A stretch of DNA of 35,275 nt from Gammaproteobacteria bacterium (GCA_024510845.1 JANEMA010000016.1:1-35275); one strand, 5' to 3'. Counted from the first letter of the stretch, positions 1,915 to 13,980 are shown. Translations and numbers: made by a program. Notes: generated by a model not told the origin, from the sequence alone.

Positions 1915-4746
1915 CTATTCCCCGCCGAGTACGGTCTCCCAGGCCTCGCGCACCAAGGCACGCTCTTCCTCCAACTCGGATACCAGCACCCGGGCAGGCA
2001 CTTCCTGCAAGGCGCGACGATGCACGATGGCGCGATACACCCGATAGATGCCGAACAGACGCTCGGCCTGAGTGGCCTCGAGCAGACCGAGCTCGCCCAG
2101 GCGTTCGAGCAGCCGCGCATTGTCGGTCCATTCCGTCAGACAGGGATGGGCATGCGCCCAGCGCAATACCGCATACTGCACCAGAAATTCGATATCTACC
2201 AAGCCACCACGCCCCTGCTTGATGTCGAAGTATTCGGCATCACCGCAATCGAGGCGCGCGGACATCTTCCGGCGCATCTCGCGGACATCGCGCCCCAGTA
2301 CCGCGGGGTCACGCTCTCGACACAGCACCTCGCGACGCACCTGTGCGAAGGCCTCGGCCATCACCGGATCGCCAGCCACCGGGCGGGCGCGCACCAGGGC
2401 CTGATGCTCCCAGGTCCAGGCGTCCTTGCGCTGATAGCGCTCGAAGGCATGCAAGGGGGGGACCAGCAAACCCGAGTCGCCGTTCGGCCTCAGGCGCATG
2501 TCCACCTCGTAGAGGATGCCCGAGGGAGTGCGGGTGGTGAGGATGTGGATGATGCGCTGCCCCAGGCGGGCATAGAACAGGTCGTTGGCGATCTCCCGCG
2601 CACCATCGGTGGTGGCCGAAGGCGAGGCATTGCCATGCACGAACACCAAGTCCAGATCCGAGCCGTAACCCAGCTCGATGCCGCCGAGCTTGCCGTAGCC
2701 CACCACCAGGAAGCCCCGGTCGAGCGGGTCGGGCAGACGGGGCCGCCCATGACGCGCATCCAGGTCGCGCCAGGCAAGTTCGAGGGTCTGCCGCAGTACC
2801 GGCTCGGCAATCTCGGTGAGGTAGTCGCTGACCACCATCAGGGGGATGATGCCGGCAATGTCGGTTACAGCCACACGCAGGCGATTACCCAACGCGAACT
2901 GGCGCAGGCGCTCCATCTCCTGTTCCAGGTCGCCCACCACTGGACGCAGCAGGGCCGCCAGCTCCACGGCCAGCTCATCGGCACGCAGGGGCACGTACAG
3001 GCTGCGCGGATCGAGCAGTTCGTCAAGCAGCAGGGGCAGGCACGCGAGCTGCGAGCCGATCCAGCGGCTCTCGGCGAGCAGGCGCACCAGTTGCGAGAGC
3101 GCCATGGGGTTCTCGATCAGCAGGTCGAGGTAGGCGGTACGTCGCACGATGGCCTCGAGCAGGCGGATCAACCGACGCAGCGCCGCATCGGGCCGGATAC
3201 TGCGCCCAGCAGCAGCGATCGCCAGCGGCATCAGGCGGTCGAGCCTGATCCTGGCCCCAGCCGAAAGCACACGCACCGCACTGCCCTCGCGAAAGGCATC
3301 GAGCGCCACGAGCAGGGTATCGACATCCTCGAAGCCGGCCTCACGCAGCGCTGCAGCGCGTTGCTCAGCCTCCCCTTCACCCAGCCAGGCCCGTGCCAGC
3401 GGGGCCTCCTCGTCGGCCGTCTCGACCTGCGGTGCCTCGAACACCTGCTCGAAATGCGAATGCACCTGCCGGCGATGGGCCTCGAGCACGGCTGCGAAGT
3501 CTTCCCAGCGACGAAAGCCCATGCAGATCGCCAAGCGCTCACGTCCGTCGGGATCATCCGGCAGCACATGGGTCTGCTCATCGCGCCAGGCCTGCAGGCG
3601 GTTCTCGGTGCGCCGGAGGAAGGCATAGGGCGCCAGCAGCCGGCGCACACTCCAGGCCGGCAGCAGGCCGAGGTCACCCAAACGTTCGAGCGCCTGCTGG
3701 ACGGGACGGACCTGCAGGGCCGGCTCACGTCCGCCGCGCACCAGCTGAAAGGCCTGGCCGATGAACTCGATCTCGCGGATGCCACCGAAACCCAGCTTGA
3801 TGTTGTCCTCCAGCCCCTTGTGTGCCAGCTCGCGTTCGATCAGGCGTTTCATGTCGCGGATCGACTCGATCACTCCGAAGTCGATGTAACGGCGATAGAG
3901 AAAGGCATGAATCAGCACCATCAACTCCTCGCAGTCGGCAGGCTCGCCGGTCAGCGGGCGTGCCTTGACCATGGCATAACGCTCCCAGGGGCGTGCCTGG
4001 TCTTGCAGGTACTGCTCGAAGGCATCGAAGTCGATCACCAAGGGCCCGGCCTCGCCGAATGGCCGTAGACGCATGTCCACCCGGAACACGAAGCCTTCCT
4101 CGGTCGGCTCGTTGAGCACACGGATCAGACGCCGCGCCAGGCGGGTGAAAAAGATCTGGTTGTCGAGCGGGCGCCGGCTGTCGGTCTGACCCTGGCGCGG
4201 AAAACAGAAGATCAGGTCGATGTCGGATGACAGGTTCAGCTCGCGCGCACCCAGCTTGCCCATGCCCAGCACCACCAGCTGCTGTGCCCGCCCTTCGGCA
4301 TCACGCGGGGTGCCATCGCGCGCCACCGCCCAGCGGTAGAGGTGATCCAGGCCGAAGCAAACACTCAGTTCAGCCAGTTCGGACAGTTCGGACAAGGTCT
4401 CGTGCAGGGGCGCCAGGTCGGCCAGGTCGCGCCAGACGATGCGCAGCAGCTCGCGCTGGCGAAAGCGGCGCAGCACACGTGCCAGCGCCTCCTCGTCGTT
4501 CACGCCCGCGAGCGCCTGTGTCAGTTCGGAGGCCATCTCGTCGAGCTCGCGCGCCCGCCCCAGCAAGCCCAGTGCCAGCAGTTCCGAGAACTCCTCGGGA
4601 TGGCGCAGCATGCGCCGTGCCGCGAATTCGCTTCCCAGCCAGACGCAGGCACGCTGGCGCTCCAGCGTCTGGTCCAGCGGCCGCATGGGCAAGGCCTGCC
4701 ATTCGCGTTCCCATTGCGTCAGCCGCTGCCGGTTTGCCTCGTGCAT
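1915..4746 (-). CDS. glnE: Bifunctional glutamine synthetase adenylyltransferase/adenylyl-removing enzyme
   Basis: This 943-residue protein adds AMP to, and removes it from, glutamine synthetase in response to PII protein, setting nitrogen assimilation activity. Two nucleotidyltransferase domains are visible. The N-terminal de-adenylylating one has GMGKLGARELNLSSDIDLIF at about residue 160. The C-terminal adenylylating one has GYGKLGGIELGYGSDLDLVF at about residue 682. Each ends in the D-x-D metal pair. Length matches E. coli GlnE (946). The frame extends 30 codons further upstream, but AGGA seven bases before the ATG at 4746 and the family length favour this start. A fossil transposase end lies about 150 bases upstream in the opposite orientation. 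Confidence 0.96.
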   Translation of the reverse strand: MHEANRQRLTQWEREWQALPMRPLDQTLERQRACVWLGSEFAARRMLRHPEEFSELLALGLLGRARELDEMASELTQALAGVNDEEALARVLRRFRQRELLRIVWRDLADLAPLHETLSELSELAELSVCFGLDHLYRWAVARDGTPRDAEGRAQQLVVLGMGKLGARELNLSSDIDLIFCFPRQGQTDSRRPLDNQIFFTRLARRLIRVLNEPTEEGFVFRVDMRLRPFGEAGPLVIDFDAFEQYLQDQARPWERYAMVKARPLTGEPADCEELMVLIHAFLYRRYIDFGVIESIRDMKRLIERELAHKGLEDNIKLGFGGIREIEFIGQAFQLVRGGREPALQVRPVQQALERLGDLGLLPAWSVRRLLAPYAFLRRTENRLQAWRDEQTHVLPDDPDGRERLAICMGFRRWEDFAAVLEAHRRQVHSHFEQVFEAPQVETADEEAPLARAWLGEGEAEQRAAALREAGFEDVDTLLVALDAFREGSAVRVLSAGARIRLDRLMPLAIAAAGRSIRPDAALRRLIRLLEAIVRRTAYLDLLIENPMALSQLVRLLAESRWIGSQLACLPLLLDELLDPRSLYVPLRADELAVELAALLRPVVGDLEQEMERLRQFALGNRLRVAVTDIAGIIPLMVVSDYLTEIAEPVLRQTLELAWRDLDARHGRPRLPDPLDRGFLVVGYGKLGGIELGYGSDLDLVFVHGNASPSATTDGAREIANDLFYARLGQRIIHILTTRTPSGILYEVDMRLRPNGDSGLLVPPLHAFERYQRKDAWTWEHQALVRARPVAGDPVMAEAFAQVRREVLCRERDPAVLGRDVREMRRKMSARLDCGDAEYFDIKQGRGGLVDIEFLVQYAVLRWAHAHPCLTEWTDNARLLERLGELGLLEATQAERLFGIYRVYRAIVHRRALQEVPARVLVSELEEERALVREAWETVLGGE

Positions 4747-4889
4747 ACCCTGGTCCTGAAAGAAATGGCTCAGATCCAGCCGATTCCGGCCATTGAACCC
4801 CAGATGAATATGACAACATCCGCACAAAAGACGCAAGCCAGATTGCGCCTGTCAGAAGCCAATAAACTGTCCGGACTCATACTCATAGC

Positions 4890-5193
4890 ACATGAGTCGG
4901 GCTTCAAGGCCGACGGCATCGTCTTCGGCGGATTCAGGCTTCAGATTCCTGCCGGCCACTGTCAACGCCATCACGTCAACGCCAGGGTATGGCGTGCATC
5001 GTTATCCCGATCGCTCCCTGACATTTTTTCACAGCCCCGGAAGACGGGCCAGTCACCCCTGGAGGCCTGCCAACCTCTCGATATTCCCCGATCAGGCGTC
5101 GGCCAATGTCTCTACTGTCATGCCGGATCGACCTGAACTCGAAGCGGATACTTTCACATGTGCTGAAAAACCAAAAAGTTCTAACTTGTTGCC
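4890..5193 (+). mobile_element. Fossil 3' end of an integrase-type transposase (copy 1)
   Basis: This ~300-base stretch is clearly homologous to 26939-27146 plus 27652-27750 read on the minus strand. The encoded fragments GIVFGGFRLQIPAGHCQRHH and, one frame later, HRYPDRSLTFFHSPGR resemble the C-terminus of DDE/integrase-core transposases (ISNCY or IS481-like; there the usual text is close to LQIPPS...VHEYPDGTLAVFHGP). Frameshifts separate the pieces, so it is dead. The end (about 5140-5193) holds two imperfect tandem ~26-base units typical of an IS terminus, which are also present in copy 2. The family name is inference; the repeat itself is seen directly. Confidence 0.65.
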
Positions 5194-5237
5194 AGCATTG
5201 TGGTGGTGGTTGGGGTACGGCAACGGAGGAAGGTTGA

Positions 5238-5322
5238 ATGTGCGGTATCTGTGGTGAGTGGCGGTTCGACGGCCCGGTACGTGATGCGGCGCTGGAGGCG
5301 ATGTTGCCGACGCTGGCACAGG
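5238..5322 (+). pseudogene. Truncated start of a class-II glutamine amidotransferase (asparagine synthase-like)
   Basis: A perfect-looking GGAGGAAGG ribosome binding site precedes an ATG that encodes MCGICGEWRFDG. This is the N-terminus of Ntn-type glutamine amidotransferases with the nucleophile Cys2. The GE-x-RFDG form is most like N-acetylglutaminylglutamine amidotransferase (AsnO/NAGGN type), a pathway for an osmolyte dipeptide. After about 28 residues (ending near MLPTLAQ) similarity stops: the expected RRGPD segment is absent, and the frame wanders to a stop at 5456. The remainder of the ~590-residue enzyme is missing, so this is a 5' relic. The sub-family assignment is inference. Confidence 0.6.
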
Positions 5323-5407
5323 CCTGGAGCACGAACCCGGCCACCGGGCTCCAGGTTCAAAAGACGCGAACCGGCAGATCCCATATCTCGATGGGCGGTG
5401 TGTACAT
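5320..5407 (-). pseudogene. Truncated start of a cytochrome b561-family protein
   Basis: On the minus strand an ATG at 5407, preceded by AAGG at good spacing, encodes MYTPPIEIWDLPVRVF and then a stop at 5357-5359. The phrase WDLPVRVF, normally followed by HW, is the hallmark N-terminus of bacterial di-haem cytochrome b561/Ni-Fe hydrogenase b-type cytochromes. After the stop the same frame continues TWSPVAGFVLQA, which looks like the first membrane helix. The sequence therefore appears to be a mutated 5' relic whose downstream part was lost where it meets the amidotransferase relic near 5320. Only about 28 codons survive. Confidence 0.5.
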
Positions 5408-5452
5408 GACTTGCCTTCTGCGACTGACGGAGGCGAACATAACCGGGAAAAG

Positions 5453-5477
5453 CTGAAAAGATCACTGGCCTTCTCAG
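5453..5477 (-). terminator. Possible weak terminator after the glycosyltransferase-like gene
   Basis: An 8-pair stem (one G-U) with a 9-base loop overlaps the stop codon of the minus-strand gene ending at 5474, and is followed on that strand by a short, interrupted T-rich stretch. It is not a textbook intrinsic terminator. Confidence 0.3.
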
Positions 5478-7147
5478 CCGATGACCTCCGCCCACAGCGC
5501 CTGCTGAGCCGGGAACTCGCGGACGGCCTTCGTCAGGCGACGTATCCAGTCCTCACGGAAGGCGGGATTTTCCAGTGCGCAAACAGCAGCGGCCTGTGGC
5601 GCGTAATTGCGGCGTACCAAGCGTGCAAAATGACGATAGGGTGCCAACAGGCTGCTCTCCACCCGGTGGTGATCGCCGAGCTGTCGATCGAAGACAGCGA
5701 GCCGTTCCATCACCTGCTCACGTACCCGTCGGTACTCACCCAGCAGGCGTTCACTGACGCCGTCGAACAGGGATGCGACCCGACTCTCCCCTGGCAACTC
5801 TGCGGGATAGCCTACCCCTACCAGCTCAATGATACCAAACAGCATCAGATCACCCACGAACTGTCGCTGATATTCGCCCGACAGCTCGACCAGCATACCC
5901 TCATGACGCACGCCGGGACGGTATTCTGCGCTGCCAGTCCACGGCTCGGCGCGACGATGCAACAGCGGCAGGGCCGCTTGCACGAAACGTTCGCCCAGCT
6001 CCTGCTGCAACAGCCGGCCGAGCGTAGGGCCGGCCATGCGCAGCTTGAGTGCAGCAAACGGGATGCCGTGGCGCAAACCCTTGCGGTTGAACACGTAATT
6101 GCCGGTATAGACGGTACGCGCCGGGGCCAGGCTGGTCTCGACATCGACCGGCGAGAACGGCGTCACACGGGTCGGGTGCTCGCCATCGAAGAAGCGCGAC
6201 AGGCGCTCCCCCAGTGCCTGCAAGGTATCGACATGGGTATGCGTTCCGTCCAGCGGACAGGCGTATTCGAAAGTCTGTGCCGCGGCATCCAGTCCGAACA
6301 GGGCTGCCATATCGTGATAGGCCCCGTGTCCGACTCCGGCCGTCTCACCGTGAAAGCCACAGGCCGCACCGGGGGTCGGCAGGGCGCTCTCGAGAATGCC
6401 GTTGAGATCCCGCAACAAGGTGCCGGCCATCACTGCCGGAGAAACCGGCGGGTCACCAACGACCTTGCCGGTCAGCACCTCGATATCACGGGTACGAAAC
6501 AGGCGGTCGATATGGCGGGCATGATCCAGCAGGTAACGCGGCCTCGCAGCAAACGGATCGACATGGAACACCTGGTCGCTGTCGATGAAATGAAACAACG
6601 GTCGTTCCCAGCCCTGGCGGGCCAGCCACAGCATGGCAATGTTGCGTGTCACCGAGGCACCCTTGTGTCCCATGGCATCGGCGCACTGCCGGCCCAGGAA
6701 CAGCGGCAACGCCGCTTGCAGCGGTTCGACCAATGCCCACTGCGCAACCGTATCCAGGTAATGGGCATCCACCCCTGCAACGGCCATCTCGCGCACCAGC
6801 TCGGCGTGCGCGCACCGGTTGGCCGGATCACGCGAGTCCTCGACCACCACCAACGACAAGCCGCCGGCATGAGTGAACCTCCGCTGATGCTCAGCGAGGC
6901 TCTCGAGACAGTGCCGCAACTGGCGCGGCCGATCGGCGACCGGCACCACCACAACCAAGTGATGAGCGACCGCGTGCTCGCACGCCGCCACCTGGCGACA
7001 ACAGTCCTGGTAGAGCATTTCGAGTTCCGGGGCAGAATCAGCCCGGAGTGTCTGCTCGAAACGTGACAGCAGGGCATTGTGATCCACAGCTTCCGCCGTG
7101 CTCATACCCAGCCGCTGGCGGGCCGTTTCGAGCGCTGTGTCCACCAT
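5474..7147 (-). CDS. Glycosyltransferase-like protein, second gene of a two-gene unit
   Basis: This is a 557-residue soluble protein with no signal peptide or membrane span. The first ~60 residues look helical. LVVVVPVADRPRQLRHCLES (from about residue 64) resembles the first strand and helix of a GT-A (GT2-like) fold, and FHFIDSDQVF near residue 188 supplies a D-x-D metal/nucleotide-sugar motif. YTGNYVFNRKGLRHGIPF and KLRMAGPTLGRLLQ in the C-terminal half fit an acceptor-binding region. The donor and acceptor are unknown. Its ATG lies six bases after the stop of the ThDP-enzyme gene, so the two are translationally coupled. An internal ATG at 7105 with GGGT before it is an alternative start. 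The call is made from motifs, not from a close match. Confidence 0.6.
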   Translation of the reverse strand: MVDTALETARQRLGMSTAEAVDHNALLSRFEQTLRADSAPELEMLYQDCCRQVAACEHAVAHHLVVVVPVADRPRQLRHCLESLAEHQRRFTHAGGLSLVVVEDSRDPANRCAHAELVREMAVAGVDAHYLDTVAQWALVEPLQAALPLFLGRQCADAMGHKGASVTRNIAMLWLARQGWERPLFHFIDSDQVFHVDPFAARPRYLLDHARHIDRLFRTRDIEVLTGKVVGDPPVSPAVMAGTLLRDLNGILESALPTPGAACGFHGETAGVGHGAYHDMAALFGLDAAAQTFEYACPLDGTHTHVDTLQALGERLSRFFDGEHPTRVTPFSPVDVETSLAPARTVYTGNYVFNRKGLRHGIPFAALKLRMAGPTLGRLLQQELGERFVQAALPLLHRRAEPWTGSAEYRPGVRHEGMLVELSGEYQRQFVGDLMLFGIIELVGVGYPAELPGESRVASLFDGVSERLLGEYRRVREQVMERLAVFDRQLGDHHRVESSLLAPYRHFARLVRRNYAPQAAAVCALENPAFREDWIRRLTKAVREFPAQQALWAEVIG

Positions 7148-7153
7148 GCCGTC

Positions 7154-8824
7154 TCAGTGCCGGCGTGAATCGTAGTCGGGAAAAGCGTCACGCTCGAGCA
7201 CGATCTCGATCAGGGTGCGACCAGCAACGAAATCGACCAGATCGAACACCAGCCCCACCTCGTCAGGGTGCGCAATGTAGTGATATGCCATACCAAAGCT
7301 GGCCGCCAGCTGCCGGTAATCCGGATTGACAAAATCGCAGTCGATGTAACGACCTGCATAGTTCTGTGCCTGGTTCTTTCGAATCAGACCCATGGTGGCA
7401 TTGCTGAACATCACCACCGTAATCGGGATGTCGTAGTTCACTGCGGTCATCAGTTCCATGCAACACATCTGGAACCCTCCGTCGCCGAGGATGGCCATGA
7501 CCGGCACCTCGCACGCGAAACGTGCACCGATGGCTGCCGGGATGGCATGGCCCAACGAGGAGATACCGCTGTTGGGAAAGAAACGCACACCCTCGGTCAC
7601 GTCCAGGAAGTTCTGCGCGAAGATGATGTTGTCGTCGAATACCATCAGCCCCGGCAGACGTTCGGCCTGAAGATGCCGAAAGAAGCACTCGACGACCGAG
7701 AAATCGGAACGGAAGATCTCGCTGGTACCGGCCTCGCGACGCCGGACCGAGACATGCGGTGTACGGGTACCGGTAGCACGGCGAGGCCCCGCGCCCTGCC
7801 GGTCGATGCGCGAGAGCACCCCGCCGAGTACCATGCGGATATCCCCGTTCACCGTCACCTCGGCCTTGAACACCTTGTTGAGCTGCCGCAGATCATTGTC
7901 CACCTGCGCAATGTGCTTGTCTTCGAGCAAAGCGTGATCCCAGAGATAGCTGGTGCGCTCGTTGAAGCTGGCACCGAGAAAGATCACCGAATCGGCATGG
8001 TCCACGATGTAGCGATAAGCAAAGCCGGTCGAGGTCACCCCCAGACTGCCCAGCGAACGTGGTGAGTTCTCGGCAATCACTCCCTTACCCTTGAGACTGG
8101 TGGCTACCGGAATGTCCAGCGTCTCGCTGAGGCGGTCTACCAGATCTTCGCTGCCCGAACAAATACAGCCGTAACCGGCTACGATCACCGGGTTGCGTGC
8201 ATTGAGCAACAGCCCGGTCAGTGCGTCGATCTGCTCGTGCCGCACGTGAATGCTATCAAACAGCCGCGATGTAACAACCTGGTCGAGTATTGTTTCATCC
8301 ACCAATTCCTTCTGCACATTGAACGGCAGGCTGAGCAACACCGGCCCCGGGGTGTCGGACAGCAGCTCACGCGCCGCTTGGTTGAGTACATTGGCCAGAT
8401 AATCGGTACGTTCGATCAGGCGCCGGTAGCGGGTGATACCTTCGAACAAGGTGCACTGATCGATCGCCCCGCCCTCGCCCGCACTCTCCTGCAGACCGCC
8501 CCTGCCGAAGATGTGGGTGGAAGTCTCCCCGGTAATCAGCAGCAGCGGCTGACGATCGGCATAGGCGCTGGCAACCGCGGTGACAGTATTGGTGGCCCCC
8601 GGCCCCGCCGTGGTGATACAACAACCAATGCCGCCACTGACTCGCGCATGGGCACAGGCCATGAAGGCCGCACCCTGCTCGTGCTTGGCGAGCACAGTAC
8701 GAATGGGTGAGTCATACAAGGCATCGTAGACCCGCAGGATGTGCGCGCCCGGCATGCCGAAGACGCAATCAATGCCCAGACGTTCCAGAAATCGGACAAT
8801 CAGCTCGCTGACTTGAATCTTCAT
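7154..8824 (-). CDS. Thiamine diphosphate-dependent enzyme, acetolactate synthase-like
   Basis: The ~556-residue protein has the three-domain layout of the AHAS/pyruvate decarboxylase family: an N-terminal pyrimidine-binding domain with the catalytic Glu in KHEQGAAFMA, a central domain (about residues 190-330), and a C-terminal pyrophosphate-binding domain. The last holds GDGGFQMCCMELMTA, with the metal-binding Asn about 26 residues after GDG (SNATMGL). A ~25-residue Arg-rich linker before the last domain is unusual. It is not a standard IlvB: there is no ilvN next to it, and its partner gene is a glycosyltransferase-like protein, which suggests a dedicated pathway. The substrate is unknown. 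Start: MKIQVSELIVRFLERLG fits the family; a GTG seven codons upstream (8845) is an alternative, and neither has a strong ribosome site. Confidence 0.75.
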   Translation of the reverse strand: MKIQVSELIVRFLERLGIDCVFGMPGAHILRVYDALYDSPIRTVLAKHEQGAAFMACAHARVSGGIGCCITTAGPGATNTVTAVASAYADRQPLLLITGETSTHIFGRGGLQESAGEGGAIDQCTLFEGITRYRRLIERTDYLANVLNQAARELLSDTPGPVLLSLPFNVQKELVDETILDQVVTSRLFDSIHVRHEQIDALTGLLLNARNPVIVAGYGCICSGSEDLVDRLSETLDIPVATSLKGKGVIAENSPRSLGSLGVTSTGFAYRYIVDHADSVIFLGASFNERTSYLWDHALLEDKHIAQVDNDLRQLNKVFKAEVTVNGDIRMVLGGVLSRIDRQGAGPRRATGTRTPHVSVRRREAGTSEIFRSDFSVVECFFRHLQAERLPGLMVFDDNIIFAQNFLDVTEGVRFFPNSGISSLGHAIPAAIGARFACEVPVMAILGDGGFQMCCMELMTAVNYDIPITVVMFSNATMGLIRKNQAQNYAGRYIDCDFVNPDYRQLAASFGMAYHYIAHPDEVGLVFDLVDFVAGRTLIEIVLERDAFPDYDSRRH

Positions 8825-8914
8825 GGCCTGCCGGGACTTCGACACCTGAGAGCGATTCTATCGCCTTCTGAGCAGGCCGCCCATGCCTGTATTCGAGCCG
8901 GGGACAGGCATCTC

Positions 8915-10813
8915 CTACTTGAGCACCACATCAATGTCGGCACGGGTACGCAACACCCGCAAGACACCCCGGAATTCGGCGCTGCCAAGAACCTGCCTTG
9001 GCCGCACCAGACGCTGTTCGTACTGTGCCTTTCCGAGTGCTTCGAGATCGCCATCGATCACTTGGTCTACTGCAATCAGGAAGTAATCTCCATCGGCTGA
9101 GACTACCCCGTCGTAGGTAGACCGGCCATCGACTGGACATGCTGCCTCGAAGACAGCGCGCACCACCTCGACAGGGGTGTCCTTGTCACCTCGCCGACCG
9201 ACCCTGGCCTGCTTCAGATCCCAGCCACGCGCCTTGACCAATTCTTCAAGGTCCCCCCCTGCACGCAGTTCCGCCAGTCGTTTCTCTCCTTCGGCATGGG
9301 CCTCGTCCGCTGCCTGGGCACGGGCAGCGGCCTGCCGAACCTGCTCCTTGACCTCATCGAAGGGCCTGACCGTCGCCTCCTCGTGCTCCTCGACGCGTAC
9401 CACTACTGCACGGGTTGGCGCCAACTCGATCACATCGCTGTTGTTGCCTTCGCCAAGCACCTCGTCCGAGAAGGCCACGCTGACCACCTTGGGCGAATCG
9501 ATCGCCAGCGGCAGGCTGTCGCCTCCATTACGCGTGATCCAGTCGCTGTTCTTAACCTCGAGCCCCAGTGCCTCGGCCACGGGGACAAGGCTGTCAGGTG
9601 TTTCATAGGCCAGGTTCGCCAAGCGTTCAAGGCGTTCGTAATAGATTTCCTCGGCCTGGGCGTGGCGATAAGCCGCCTCGACCTTGTCTCGCACCTGTTC
9701 GAAACCAGCCTCGGCGCCACCACGAACATCGGTGACCTCGATGATGTGATAGCCGAACTCGGTCTTGACCGGCCCGGTGATCTCACCCGGTTTTGCCGCA
9801 AATACGACTTCCTCGAAGGGCTTGACCATCACCCCGCGGTTGACCCAGCCCAGATCGCCGCCATCGGCAGCAGACCCCGGGTCCCTGGAATATTCCTTGG
9901 CCAGCGCCGGGAAATCCGCACCCTGGCGTAACTGTTCGACCAGTTTCTCGACCTTCTGACGCACCTTGTTCTCATCACCCTCGACGGGAATCAGGATATG
10001 TCGCACCCGGCGTTCCTGCTCGGCAACAAATTCACTGCGGTGGTCTTCGAAATACTGGCGCAACGTTTCTTCGTCCACCGACACATCATCAGCCAGCGCC
10101 TTCACTTCCAGCTGTATCCAGGCCAGCTTGACCCGTTCGGGGACCTGATAGTCACGTTGCGAGCGTTCGTAATACTGCCGAGCCTCTTCGTCGCTGACCG
10201 CGGCGGCATCGAGAAAGCCATCGGCAGGAATTCGTGCATAGCGAACCTCCCGCCGCTGTTCGCCTAGGCGCACCTGCTCGGACAGATCACTGTGGGTAAC
10301 AATCGTGGTATCACGAATGCCCGATTGTTGCTGCGCACGAACCATTTCCTCACGCACCAAGGCCTCGAAACCGACCTTGGTCAGCCCCTGGTTACGTACC
10401 GTAGCCTCATACAGACGCATATCGAACTTTCCACCACTCTGCAGACCGGACAGGGAACGGATATAGGCTGCCACCTGCTCGTCACTCACCCGCATCCCCC
10501 AATCCTTGGCAGCCTGCCGAAGCAGGGTCTCGTCGAGCATCGCCTGCAGTACCCGCGGCTTGAGCAACTTGTCGGAGAAGATATCGGCACGGAAGGCCGA
10601 CCCCATACGTTGACGCATGGTCTCACGGAACTCACGCACCCGGCGCTCGAGCTGCCGGACTGTGATGTCGGTACCATCGACCGAGGCCACCACCGGGTCG
10701 GCGCTGACTCCGAGATACTGCTGTATCCCGAACAACGCAAAGGGGATACTGATGAGGATCACGATCGCCCAAGCGATCCACCCTTGAGCCTTTTCTCTGA
10801 TTGCCTGCAGCAT
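8915..10813 (-). CDS. ppiD: Periplasmic-facing peptidyl-prolyl isomerase/chaperone
   Basis: This 632-residue inner-membrane-anchored foldase helps newly exported outer-membrane and periplasmic proteins leave the Sec translocon. A short cytoplasmic N-terminus is followed by one membrane span (WAIVILISIPFALFGI, about residues 12-30) and a SurA-like N-terminal chaperone domain. A parvulin domain lies in the middle (about residues 265-360; SRDPGSAADGGDLGWVNRG and FGYHIIEVTD), followed by a long C-terminal region. E. coli PpiD is 623 residues. The ATG at 10813 gives the canonical MLQ-x-IR-x-KAQGWIAW start. It is the last gene of the tig-clpPX-lon-hupB block, separated from it by two tRNAs and a terminator. 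Confidence 0.94.
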   Translation of the reverse strand: MLQAIREKAQGWIAWAIVILISIPFALFGIQQYLGVSADPVVASVDGTDITVRQLERRVREFRETMRQRMGSAFRADIFSDKLLKPRVLQAMLDETLLRQAAKDWGMRVSDEQVAAYIRSLSGLQSGGKFDMRLYEATVRNQGLTKVGFEALVREEMVRAQQQSGIRDTTIVTHSDLSEQVRLGEQRREVRYARIPADGFLDAAAVSDEEARQYYERSQRDYQVPERVKLAWIQLEVKALADDVSVDEETLRQYFEDHRSEFVAEQERRVRHILIPVEGDENKVRQKVEKLVEQLRQGADFPALAKEYSRDPGSAADGGDLGWVNRGVMVKPFEEVVFAAKPGEITGPVKTEFGYHIIEVTDVRGGAEAGFEQVRDKVEAAYRHAQAEEIYYERLERLANLAYETPDSLVPVAEALGLEVKNSDWITRNGGDSLPLAIDSPKVVSVAFSDEVLGEGNNSDVIELAPTRAVVVRVEEHEEATVRPFDEVKEQVRQAAARAQAADEAHAEGEKRLAELRAGGDLEELVKARGWDLKQARVGRRGDKDTPVEVVRAVFEAACPVDGRSTYDGVVSADGDYFLIAVDQVIDGDLEALGKAQYEQRLVRPRQVLGSAEFRGVLRVLRTRADIDVVLK

Positions 10814-10850
10814 GGTTTGTCTTTTTGTTTCGTCCGGATTGAATTTCGAT

Positions 10851-10884
10851 ACAAAAAAAACGGGGTATCGCAACGATACCCCGT
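10851..10884 (-). terminator. Intrinsic terminator after tRNA-Val/tRNA-Asp
   Basis: A perfect 10-pair stem (10861-10870 with 10874-10883, extended by one A-T pair) with a 3-base loop is followed on the minus strand by eight T residues. It ends the hupB-tRNA transcript just upstream of ppiD. Confidence 0.9.
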
Positions 10885-10894
10885 CTTTCAGAGC

Positions 10895-10971
10895 TGGCGG
10901 AGTGGACGGGACTCGAACCCGCGACCCCCGGCGTGACAGGCCGGTATTCTAACCAACTGAACTACCACTCC
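10895..10971 (-). tRNA. tRNA-Asp (GUC)
   Basis: This 77-base cloverleaf encodes its CCA end. The acceptor stem is GGAGTGG paired with CCACTCC, the anticodon loop reads CTGTCAC (anticodon GTC), and the T-loop GGTTCGAGTCC is canonical. It lies 10 bases downstream of tRNA-Val on the same strand. Confidence 0.97.
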
Positions 10972-10981
10972 TCAATACCCG

Positions 10982-11057
10982 TGGTGGGTGCTGCAGGGAT
11001 CGAACCTGCGACCCTCGCCTTGTAAGGGCGATGCTCTCCCGGCTGAGCTAAGCACCC
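10982..11057 (-). tRNA. tRNA-Val (UAC)
   Basis: This is a 76-base cloverleaf with encoded CCA, acceptor stem GGGTGCT, anticodon loop CTTACAA (anticodon TAC) and T-loop GGTTCGATCCC. It begins only 13 bases after the hupB stop on the same strand, so it is probably released from a hupB-tRNA-Val-tRNA-Asp transcript. Confidence 0.97.
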
Positions 11058-11070
11058 CGTTCGAGGGGCG

Positions 11071-11343
11071 CTAATTTACAGCATCCTTGAACGCTTTTCC
11101 AGCCTTAAATGCAGGCGATTTGGACGCCGCGATCTCGATGATTTCACCGGTCTTTGGATTACGCCCCTTGCGTGCGGCACGCTCGCGCAGGGTAAAGGTG
11201 CCAAAACCGATGATGGACACGCTGTCGCCCGATTTGATCACTTGGGTGATGGCATCGATCATACCGTCCAGTACGCGGCCGGCGGCGGTCTTGGAAATAT
11301 CGGCAGCGTCTGCCATGGCTTCGATGAGCTCGGTCTTGTTCAT
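11071..11343 (-). CDS. hupB: DNA-binding protein HU, beta-type
   Basis: This 90-residue histone-like protein bends and compacts DNA as a dimer. [19 protein letters not shown] is the standard HU opening. [20 protein letters not shown] holds the beta-arm base, and the arm-tip Pro-containing segment is followed by [12 protein letters not shown] at the end. A run of G (GGGGGA) lies at ribosome-site distance before the ATG. Its place after lon and before ppiD is as in E. coli, which supports the hupB rather than the hupA name. The 213 bases upstream separate it from lon, so it probably has its own promoter, but no clear -35/-10 pair is visible there. Confidence 0.96.
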
Positions 11344-11556
11344 GTCGTTGAATTCCCCCTGTTGGATACTCCGGCCTGTTCAGACCTGGACGTCACCAAA
11401 TTTTCAGTTTTATTAGGATGAGCGGTCATGTAGCGACCACTTTCGAATACAGTCACGCGCCGTCAGCGTCCTGGGTGCCTCTCACTCCCCTGCAAACAGA
11501 GCGAACCCAAGGGGTTCCCCGCGCAAGCCCCTTTCTACCAGCGTTCACATCGTCAA

Positions 11557-13980
11557 TCAATGATGACGCAACCCATCCTTGTCGCTTTCCTCGGTTTTTG
11601 CGGTACTTGCTACCTTCTTGTCGTCAGTGTCGATTCGCGGCGTCGGCATCGTGAGCAGCGCGATCTCCAGCACCTCGTCAATCCACTGGACGGGACGAAT
11701 ATAGAGGTTTTTCTTGATGTTCTTTGGGATATCGACCAGATCACGCTCGTTCTCGGAGGGAATAATGACCGTCTGGACGCCACCACGATGCGCAGCCAGC
11801 AACTTCTCCTTGAGACCACCGATGGGCAACACTTCGCCACGCAGGGTAATCTCACCAGTCATGGCTACGTCGGCCCGCACCGGGATGCCTGTCAGCGCCG
11901 ACACTAGCGCAATGCACATGCCGATACCGGCGCTCGGGCCATCCTTGGGTGTAGCACCCTCCGGAACGTGGATGTGGACATCTACCTTCTCATAGAAATC
12001 GTCGTTCAGCCCCAACGCCTTGGCACGTGAGCGCACCACCGTCATCGCGGCCTGTATCGATTCCTTCATCACGTCGCCGAGCTGTCCGGTATGGGTCAGA
12101 CGTCCCTTGCCCGGGGTAAGCGCGGCCTCGATGCGCAGCAACTCGCCACCCACCTCGGTCCAGGCCAAACCCACCACTTCGCCCACCTGGTCATATTCCT
12201 CGGCACAACCATAACGGAAGCGCCGTACCCCGAGATACTTTTCCAGGGACTTCGGCGTGACCGTGACCTTCTTGCCCTCCTTGCCTTTGAGCAGCAGATC
12301 CTTGACTACCTTGCGACAGATCTTGGCAATCTCGCGATCCAGGCTACGCACCCCGGCCTCGCGGGTGTAGTAGCGAACGATGTCGCGCACCACGGACCTG
12401 CGAATCACCAGTTCGCTCTCCACCAAACCGTTGTTTTTCATCTGCTTTGGAATCAGGTAGTTCTCGGCGATCACCACCTTTTCATCCTCGGTGTAACCCG
12501 AGAGACGAATAACCTCCATGCGGTCGAGCAACGGTGCCGGAATGTTCATGCTGTTGGCGGTGGCCACGAACATGACTTTGGAGAGATCGAAATCGACCTC
12601 CAAGTAGTGATCTTGAAAGGTATGGTTCTGCTCGGGATCGAGCACCTCGAGCATCGCCGAGGCCGGATCGCCGCGGAAGTCCATCGCCATCTTGTCGATC
12701 TCGTCGAGCAGGAACAGCGGGGTGCGTGTGCCAACCTTGATCAGGTTCTGGACGATCTTGCCAGGCATAGCACCGATATAGGTGCGGCGGTGACCGCGGA
12801 TCTCAGCCTCGTCACGCACCCCGCCAAGCGCCATGCGCACGAACTTGCGATTGGTCGCCCGCGCAATGGACTTTCCGAGCGAGGTCTTGCCAACGCCAGG
12901 CGGCCCCACCAGGCAGAGAATTGGGCCCTTGAGCTTGCGCACCCGCTGCTGCGCGGCCAAGTACTCCAAAATGCGCTCCTTGACCTTCTCCAGACCGTAG
13001 TGGTCAGCATCCAGCACCGCTTGCGCGCGCGAAATATCGATGCGCACCTTGGTACGCTTCTTCCACGGCACACTCACCAGTGTGTCGATGTAGTTGCGCA
13101 CTACCGTGGCCTCGGCCGACATAGGCGACATCAGCTTGAGCTTGTTCAGCTCGGACTGCGCCTTGGCCTTGACCTTTTTCGACATGCCAGCCTTCTCGAT
13201 CTTCCTGTCCAACTCCTCAAGCTCGTTGGGCACGTCGTCCAGCTCACCCAATTCCTTCTGAATGGCCTTCATCTGCTCGTTGAGATAATACTCACGCTGA
13301 TTCTTTTCCATCTGGCGCTTGACCCGCCCACGGATACGCTTCTCCATCTGCAAGATATCGTTCTCACCTTCCATGAGTGCCATCAGGTGCTCCAGGCGCT
13401 CGCGCACGCTGGCAATCTCAAGGACGTGCTGCTTTTCCTCGATCTTCAGCGCCATGTGTGCGGCCATGGTGTCGGCAAGGCGCGAGGGCTCATCGATACT
13501 GGCCAACGAGGTCAGCACCTCGGGCGGCACCTTCTTGTTGAGCTTGACGTACTGATCAAACAGGTCGGTGGACGAGCGCATCAGCACATCCATCTCTTGC
13601 TCGGAAGTATCGACATCATCTTCCACAGGTTCGATCGATGCAGCCAGGCAGCCGGCGCCCGCAACATGGTTCTTGATGTGTACCCGCTGATTGCCCTCGA
13701 CCAGCACCTTGACAGTGCCGTCCGGCAACTTCAGCAACTGCAGGATATTGGCCAACGTGCCCACATCGTACAAGTCACTAGCCTCCGGATCATCGATATC
13801 GGCCGCCCGCTGGGCGACCAGCAGGATCTGCTTGTTGTCGGACATGGCCACATCCAGCGCATGAATGGACTTTTCGCGCCCGACGAACAAAGGTATGACC
13901 ATGTAGGGATAGACCACCACGTCGCGCAACGGCAATACCGGCACGCTCAACGGGCCACCACCCTGAATTTCCTGTCCCAT
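11557..13980 (-). CDS. lon: ATP-dependent protease La
   Basis: This 807-residue cytoplasmic AAA+ serine protease degrades misfolded and short-lived regulatory proteins. In order it has an N-terminal substrate-binding domain ([15 protein letters not shown] at the start), a coiled-coil region around residues 190-260, an AAA+ module with Walker [10 protein letters not shown] near residue 356 and Walker [10 protein letters not shown], and a C-terminal protease domain. The catalytic dyad is Ser in [11 protein letters not shown] (about 680) and Lys in [13 protein letters not shown] (about 722). The last ~30 residues are a charged tail. GGAGGA precedes the ATG. It sits after clpX but behind a terminator and its own RpoH-like promoter. 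Confidence 0.97.

Follow-up and report, generated by a model that had tools for sequence, protein, structure and literature searches.

A conserved ThDP-enzyme and GT-A-like gene pair with sulfotransferase-like partners in dsrA-bearing gammaproteobacteria

Two neighbouring genes, encoding a ThDP-dependent carboligase-like enzyme and a GT-A-fold glycosyltransferase-like (GT) protein, belong together with a sulfotransferase-like protein of either of two families (A4 or A5) to a real, conserved and uncharacterised module. The linkage of these three components is well supported by their co-inheritance in dsrA-bearing gammaproteobacteria. Our preferred reading, to which we assign a probability of roughly 0.45, is that the ThDP and GT genes form the linked core of a three-component module that makes a sulfated glycoconjugate in Dsr-type sulfur oxidisers. 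Of a preliminary description of this DNA, the core idea of a conserved, uncharacterised pair stood, whereas the amidotransferase that it added as a third gene did not.

The locus and the conservation of the pair

The window (the whole stretch of DNA analysed, 35,275 nucleotides) is the complete contig C8 of a 1.87-Mb genome in 72 contigs. By ORF calling, both genes lie on its minus strand, and the ORF coordinates confirmed that the stop of the ThDP gene and the next ATG are six bases apart. The features are as follows.

7154-8824, minus strand: ThDP-dependent AHAS-superfamily carboligase-like enzyme, 556 aa (Pfam TPP_enzyme N/M/C; AHAS-superfamily NCBIfam matches)
5474-7147, minus strand: predicted GT-A-fold glycosyltransferase-like protein of unnamed family, 557 aa (AlphaFold model; GT-A structural matches; invariant DSD at 189-191)
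7148-7153, minus strand: six-base gap from the ThDP stop to the GT start
8825-8914, minus strand: 90-bp gap from the ppiD stop to the ThDP start
4998-5321, plus strand: outside the unit, a 324-bp, 94%-identical copy of an amidotransferase 5' region (the "relic")

The ThDP reading frame is open over 7154-8845 (minus strand), and the ATG at 8824 gives MKIQVSEL, a start common to most relatives of the protein. No sigma-70-like promoter was found in a search of positions 4600-9200. Immediately upstream of the module is ppiD, and past it come tRNA-Asp, tRNA-Val, an HU-like gene of 90 aa and lon (8915-13980); this ppiD/lon neighbourhood is kept in several congeners. Compared with congeners, the ThDP gene has a dN/dS of about 0.12 and the GT gene one of 0.19, and both are therefore under purifying selection.

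On the plus strand, between glnE and the GT gene, stands an amidotransferase fragment (5238-5456) that had been taken as the trace of a third gene of the same pathway. A 94%-identical counterpart of positions 4998-5321 stands on contig C20, where the matching DNA spans the upstream part and the opening 28 codons of an amidotransferase gene. This gene encodes an intact N-acetylglutaminylglutamine (NAGGN) amidotransferase (TIGR03104) and is intact in all eight congeners. The relic is a partial duplicate of the C20 gene and is uninformative about the pair, and the amidotransferase was rejected as a lost third partner. An intact asparagine-synthase-like gene, which the preliminary description had thought might accompany the pair in other genomes, was not seen among the recurrent neighbours there.

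Conservation was assessed in two samples, one of 369 Gammaproteobacteria and one of 93 near relatives of the window's genome. With two weak matches and one relic set aside, the GT gene was present in 22 of the 369; relatives occurred in 23 of the 93 (one as stop-broken fragments only), and also in Sulfuricella and further contigs. Where the surroundings were read gene by gene, the ThDP gene stood beside the GT gene on the same strand in 38 of 43 genomes, and genomes with the pair span many gammaproteobacterial families as well as Sulfuricella. The five exceptions comprised a contig end, a short broken fragment, a ThDP ortholog sitting away from GT (G274), and two genomes with GT and no ThDP ortholog (G044 and G155). 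Beyond the genus of the window, different lineages have different genes flanking the pair; since the two stay adjacent all the same, they move together or are selected together, and the expectation that they would recur together elsewhere held. ThDP and GT distances are correlated (Mantel rho 0.80, p 1e-4), a value that shared ancestry alone can give. A tblastn search of GT against 72,556 plasmids gave no match. In a phylum-wide sample of 142 genomes GT was found in the window's own genome only; the genomes listed for that sample are of the same class, and the result has little bearing on other classes.

Instances of decay were seen at loci L071, L061 and L044: in G015 GT is present as fragments that contain stops, in G155 it has an in-frame TGA, and in G044 it has no ThDP ortholog. 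An MmeI-like restriction-modification gene (1146 aa, DUF559) lies between ThDP and GT on a Sulfuricellaceae contig (L025:5606-9046), a case that is counted within the 38 adjacent genomes.

The ThDP enzyme and its GT-A-like partner

All three TPP domains (TPP_enzyme N/M/C) were matched by Pfam in the ThDP protein which, with its catalytic Glu and GDG...N motif, belongs to the ThDP-dependent AHAS/POX superfamily. The full catalytic apparatus first read from the sequence was upheld: E49 (in KHEQGAAF), D448 (in GDGG) and N475 are present and, like Q112 and R290, invariant across 20 relatives. Many AHAS-superfamily NCBIfam models matched, none over its curated cut-off among the 25 shown; scores were 332.4 bits for the biosynthetic AHAS large subunit (TIGR00118, cut-off 538.35), 228.9 bits for glyoxylate carboligase (PRK11269, cut-off 791) and 242.6 bits for sulfoacetaldehyde acetyltransferase (PRK07525, cut-off 620). 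Glyoxylate carboligase has Val at the position of the catalytic Glu, which is present here as Glu49. The true ilvB of the same genome (864 bits to TIGR00118) adjoins ilvH and ilvC on contig C14. Because of this separate ilvB-ilvH-ilvC set and the score below the TIGR00118 cut-off, identity with the housekeeping AHAS was rejected, which corrects the local annotation of a gene that is easily misnamed acetolactate synthase. No AHAS small subunit was found beside the pair, as the preliminary description had also observed of a regulatory subunit; ilvH sits on contig C14.

Residues were mapped by HMMER alignment on yeast AHAS, in which W586 is the acceptor-specificity Trp. Yeast Gln202 and Arg380 correspond to Q112 and R290. 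The position of Trp586 is occupied by Asn484, invariant in 20 relatives and preceded by an invariant Arg482-Lys483, such that Arg-Lys-Asn replaces the Thr-Gln-Trp of the yeast enzyme. The ThDP enzyme would activate a 2-oxo acid as AHAS does, and from the invariant Arg482-Lys483-Asn484 we infer an acceptor pocket that is more polar and positively charged. Its predicted structure was poor (pLDDT 68.5).

For the GT protein, no Pfam family was matched; the best value for Glycos_transf_2 (GT2) was E 0.012, short of the gathering level and seen in 4 of 24 members, the window protein not among them. PDB profile searches gave no usable relative. An AlphaFold model from an input of 11 sequences (pLDDT 84.6, pTM 0.87) fell among GT-A enzymes in Foldseek and VIA-align comparisons, and a structural search of BFVD returned generic GT-A matches only. 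D189-S190-D191, within FHFIDSDQVF, is invariant across 24 relatives, as are K162, H266, H278-D279, H324, R327, R344, R370, R428 and D433. The glycosyltransferase-like fold proposed at the outset, which structure prediction could have refuted, is supported by this model, and the D-x-D motif read then is present. Given the predicted GT-A fold with its DxD, we are confident that the partner has this fold and belongs to an unnamed family, and it could be either a transferase or a mutase; GT-A folds are also found in mutases and nucleotidyltransferases. With a conserved pair, a predicted GT-A fold and a partner without described family, the locus is therefore a promising place to look for an undescribed function, as had been suggested.

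The closest structural matches by VIA-align were two GT75 proteins, MtdL (Z 18.2, 293 aligned residues, rmsd 3.0) and rice UAM2 (Z 17.7), the alignment running through the C-terminal helices. Together with the invariant R327, R344, R370 and R428, these matches would fit a GT75-related (MtdL, UAM) nucleotide-sugar mutase or sugar-activating enzyme feeding the ThDP or sulfation step. However, GT2/GT27-type transferases follow nearly tied at Z 15-17, no Pfam RGP/GT75 match was obtained in any of the 24 members, and no residue of the GT protein could be assigned as the counterpart of MtdL's autoglycosylated Arg159. We consider a role of this kind very unlikely.

The sulfotransferase-like component and the link to dsrA

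In 16 loci a P-loop protein of about 177 aa (A4) is encoded directly behind GT, often overlapping it. Its alignment contains GRCGSTTF near the N-terminus and a later YVHLxRD...SF, which resemble both PAPS-binding motifs of sulfotransferases; for A4 the label "sulfotransferase-like" refers to these two motifs only. Pfam searches with A4 gave a best E of 0.24, in a single member and without a match to a curated model, and PDB profile searches gave no usable relative. In the window's genus A4 lies apart from the pair, outside the window, the genome's own copy being at G000:C9:10580-11101. A second sulfotransferase-like family (A5) is convergent with GT in seven loci; four of its seven members match Pfam Sulfotransfer_3, with 32.8 and 32.0 bits in two members against a gathering threshold of 27. 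Comparison of A4 with A5 by hhalign gave no significant match, both alignments being shallow.

Within the 369-genome sample, A4 was present in 13 of the 22 genomes with GT versus 4 of the 347 without it (p 3.5e-15). Strong A5 members were found in eight of the other nine GT-bearing genomes and in no genome lacking GT. None of the 22 contained both families, and a single one (G319) contained neither; in the G319/Sulfuricella lineage a CapK/PaaK-like adenylate-forming protein stands beside GT instead. In the near-relative set, A4 or A5 occurred in 18 of 22 genomes with GT and neither in four. The replacement of one family by the other supports a step common to both, and the actual third partner of the pair, as judged from motifs and family matches, is a putative sulfotransferase-like P-loop protein and not an amidotransferase. 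Literature searches for such a ThDP/GT/sulfotransferase-like trio returned no report, an absence that is weak evidence.

Other genes recur around the module. A Methyltransf_24 protein adjoins A4 in at least eight loci (e.g. L032:6497-7249 and L115:4827-5453), including congeners whose A4 has left the pair, and may be a fourth component. One gene family is divergent from ThDP in three A5 lineages (L045:12396-13121, L087:5265-5957 and L088:5748-6365), its L045 member being HAD-hydrolase-like. Genes beside A5 in G274 that by size might have been CysD/CysN proved to be MiaA, MutL and AmiC, and that assignment was rejected.

All 22 GT-bearing genomes of the 369-genome sample carry dsrA, 20 over the TIGR02064 cut-off and two as strong contig-end fragments, compared with 112 of 369 genomes over the cut-off (about 112-119 in all, approximately one third of the sample). 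TIGR02064 does not tell oxidative from reductive Dsr; in Gammaproteobacteria Dsr is usually oxidative. The 22 genomes cover about 14 families, and the hypergeometric probability of the association is about 1e-12 by genome and 4e-8 by family, the families having been counted by hand. APS kinase, the enzyme that makes PAPS, was over cut-off in 32 of 36 genomes with GT versus 24 of 40 with dsrA and no GT (p 0.008), the window's genome being among the former. An APS kinase gene adjoins the trio in G014, and in G356 a CysQ-like phosphatase (below cut-off) follows it.

The correlation with dsrA may stem from a common lifestyle. Genomes with dsrA have habitats and ancestry in common, and about four-fifths of those sampled are without the module, which could then be an old envelope or osmolyte pathway of marine and sediment chemolithotrophs, functionally separate from Dsr chemistry. 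Against such hitch-hiking stand the occurrence of dsrA in every one of the 22 genomes over some 14 families (hand-counted p about 4e-8) and the sulfotransferase-like gene, which adjoins GT in many genomes and is replaced by the second family in nearly all others; we regard this explanation as unlikely.

Proposed function and comparison with known systems

Since the trio is confined to dsrA carriers in the sampled genomes, it probably makes a sulfated, sugar-containing compound important to those carriers, and we infer a chemistry of carboligation, sugar handling and sulfation. Three steps are envisaged, listed here without regard to order and with all substrates hypothetical. The ThDP enzyme would decarboxylate a 2-oxo acid and join the resulting unit to a charged acceptor, probably one bearing a carboxylate or phosphate. 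The GT-A protein would link a sugar donated by a nucleotide sugar to the ThDP product, or handle a sugar carrying that product, and the P-loop protein would transfer sulfate from PAPS. What results would be a sulfated glycoconjugate of small size, of use to sulfur oxidisers as a solute, a signal, a carrier or a group on the envelope.

In sediments and vents, a large share of sulfide oxidation is due to Dsr-type sulfur oxidisers, and no part of sulfur oxidation is known to combine a ThDP carboligase with both a glycosyltransferase and a sulfotransferase. A conserved, dsrA-confined trio whose second member has no described family thus offers three enzymes to assay and one metabolite to seek. It is doubtful that some of these organisms specifically require a new metabolite formed by ThDP carboligation, glycosyl transfer and sulfation; if they did, the product could be, for example, a sulfated carrier, a protectant or a sulfur-globule-associated glycoconjugate, and the presence of the trio would mark it in genomes.

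There are documented cases of AHAS-superfamily ThDP enzymes introducing branches into nucleotide-linked keto sugars for LPS (PMC12247030; PMC4802897), and a ThDP enzyme beside a GT fits this precedent, as does the CapK/PaaK-like protein in the third-gene place in Sulfuricella. By such a route the ThDP enzyme, as a functional analogue of YerE/ErwE, would attach a short acyl group to a keto sugar; the resulting branched sugar would be passed by the GT-A protein to LPS or some other glycan, and sulfation would be an extra decoration. YerE-like carboligases resemble the window enzyme as AHAS-superfamily ThDP enzymes working with glycosyl transfer (PMC12247030), but the described pathways require NDP-deoxysugar genes, and no NDP-hexose dehydratase, epimerase or other deoxysugar gene was found among the recurrent neighbours, singletons being partly annotated. 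A branched-sugar product accordingly appears improbable, and the sulfated glycoconjugate remains our preferred reading.

Among other known systems, the NAGGN trio is unrelated to the pair, the relic deriving from its TIGR03104 amidotransferase gene. The mycofactocin glycosyltransferase MftF (TIGR03965) shows a weak N-terminal NCBIfam match in 11 of 24 GT members; the likeness is that of the first GT-A strand and helix, and differs from membership in reaching 21.7 bits against a 280-bit cut-off over residues 50-116 only. The GT75 NDP-pyranose mutases (MtdL, UAM) are the best structural match, through the GT-A domain and C-terminal helices, but have DDD where the GT protein has DSD, lack a sequence-family match to it and are almost tied in Z with GT2/GT27. 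AHAS (IlvB) shares with the window enzyme the ThDP superfamily, the domain order, the catalytic Glu, GDG...N and the residues Gln202 and Arg380 (yeast numbering), whereas Trp586 is changed to an invariant Asn, Lys251 to Phe/Tyr and Met354 to Val, and the small subunit is absent. Among solved structures, the ThDP enzyme is closest to BbmA (PDB 8x3x), its best PDB match (profile E 6e-105, nearly full length). A literature search on the function of BbmA found no paper; the BbmA sequence has GDAAFAM...GGHGLVHLGEQ where the window enzyme has GDGGFQM...TMGLIRKNQ.
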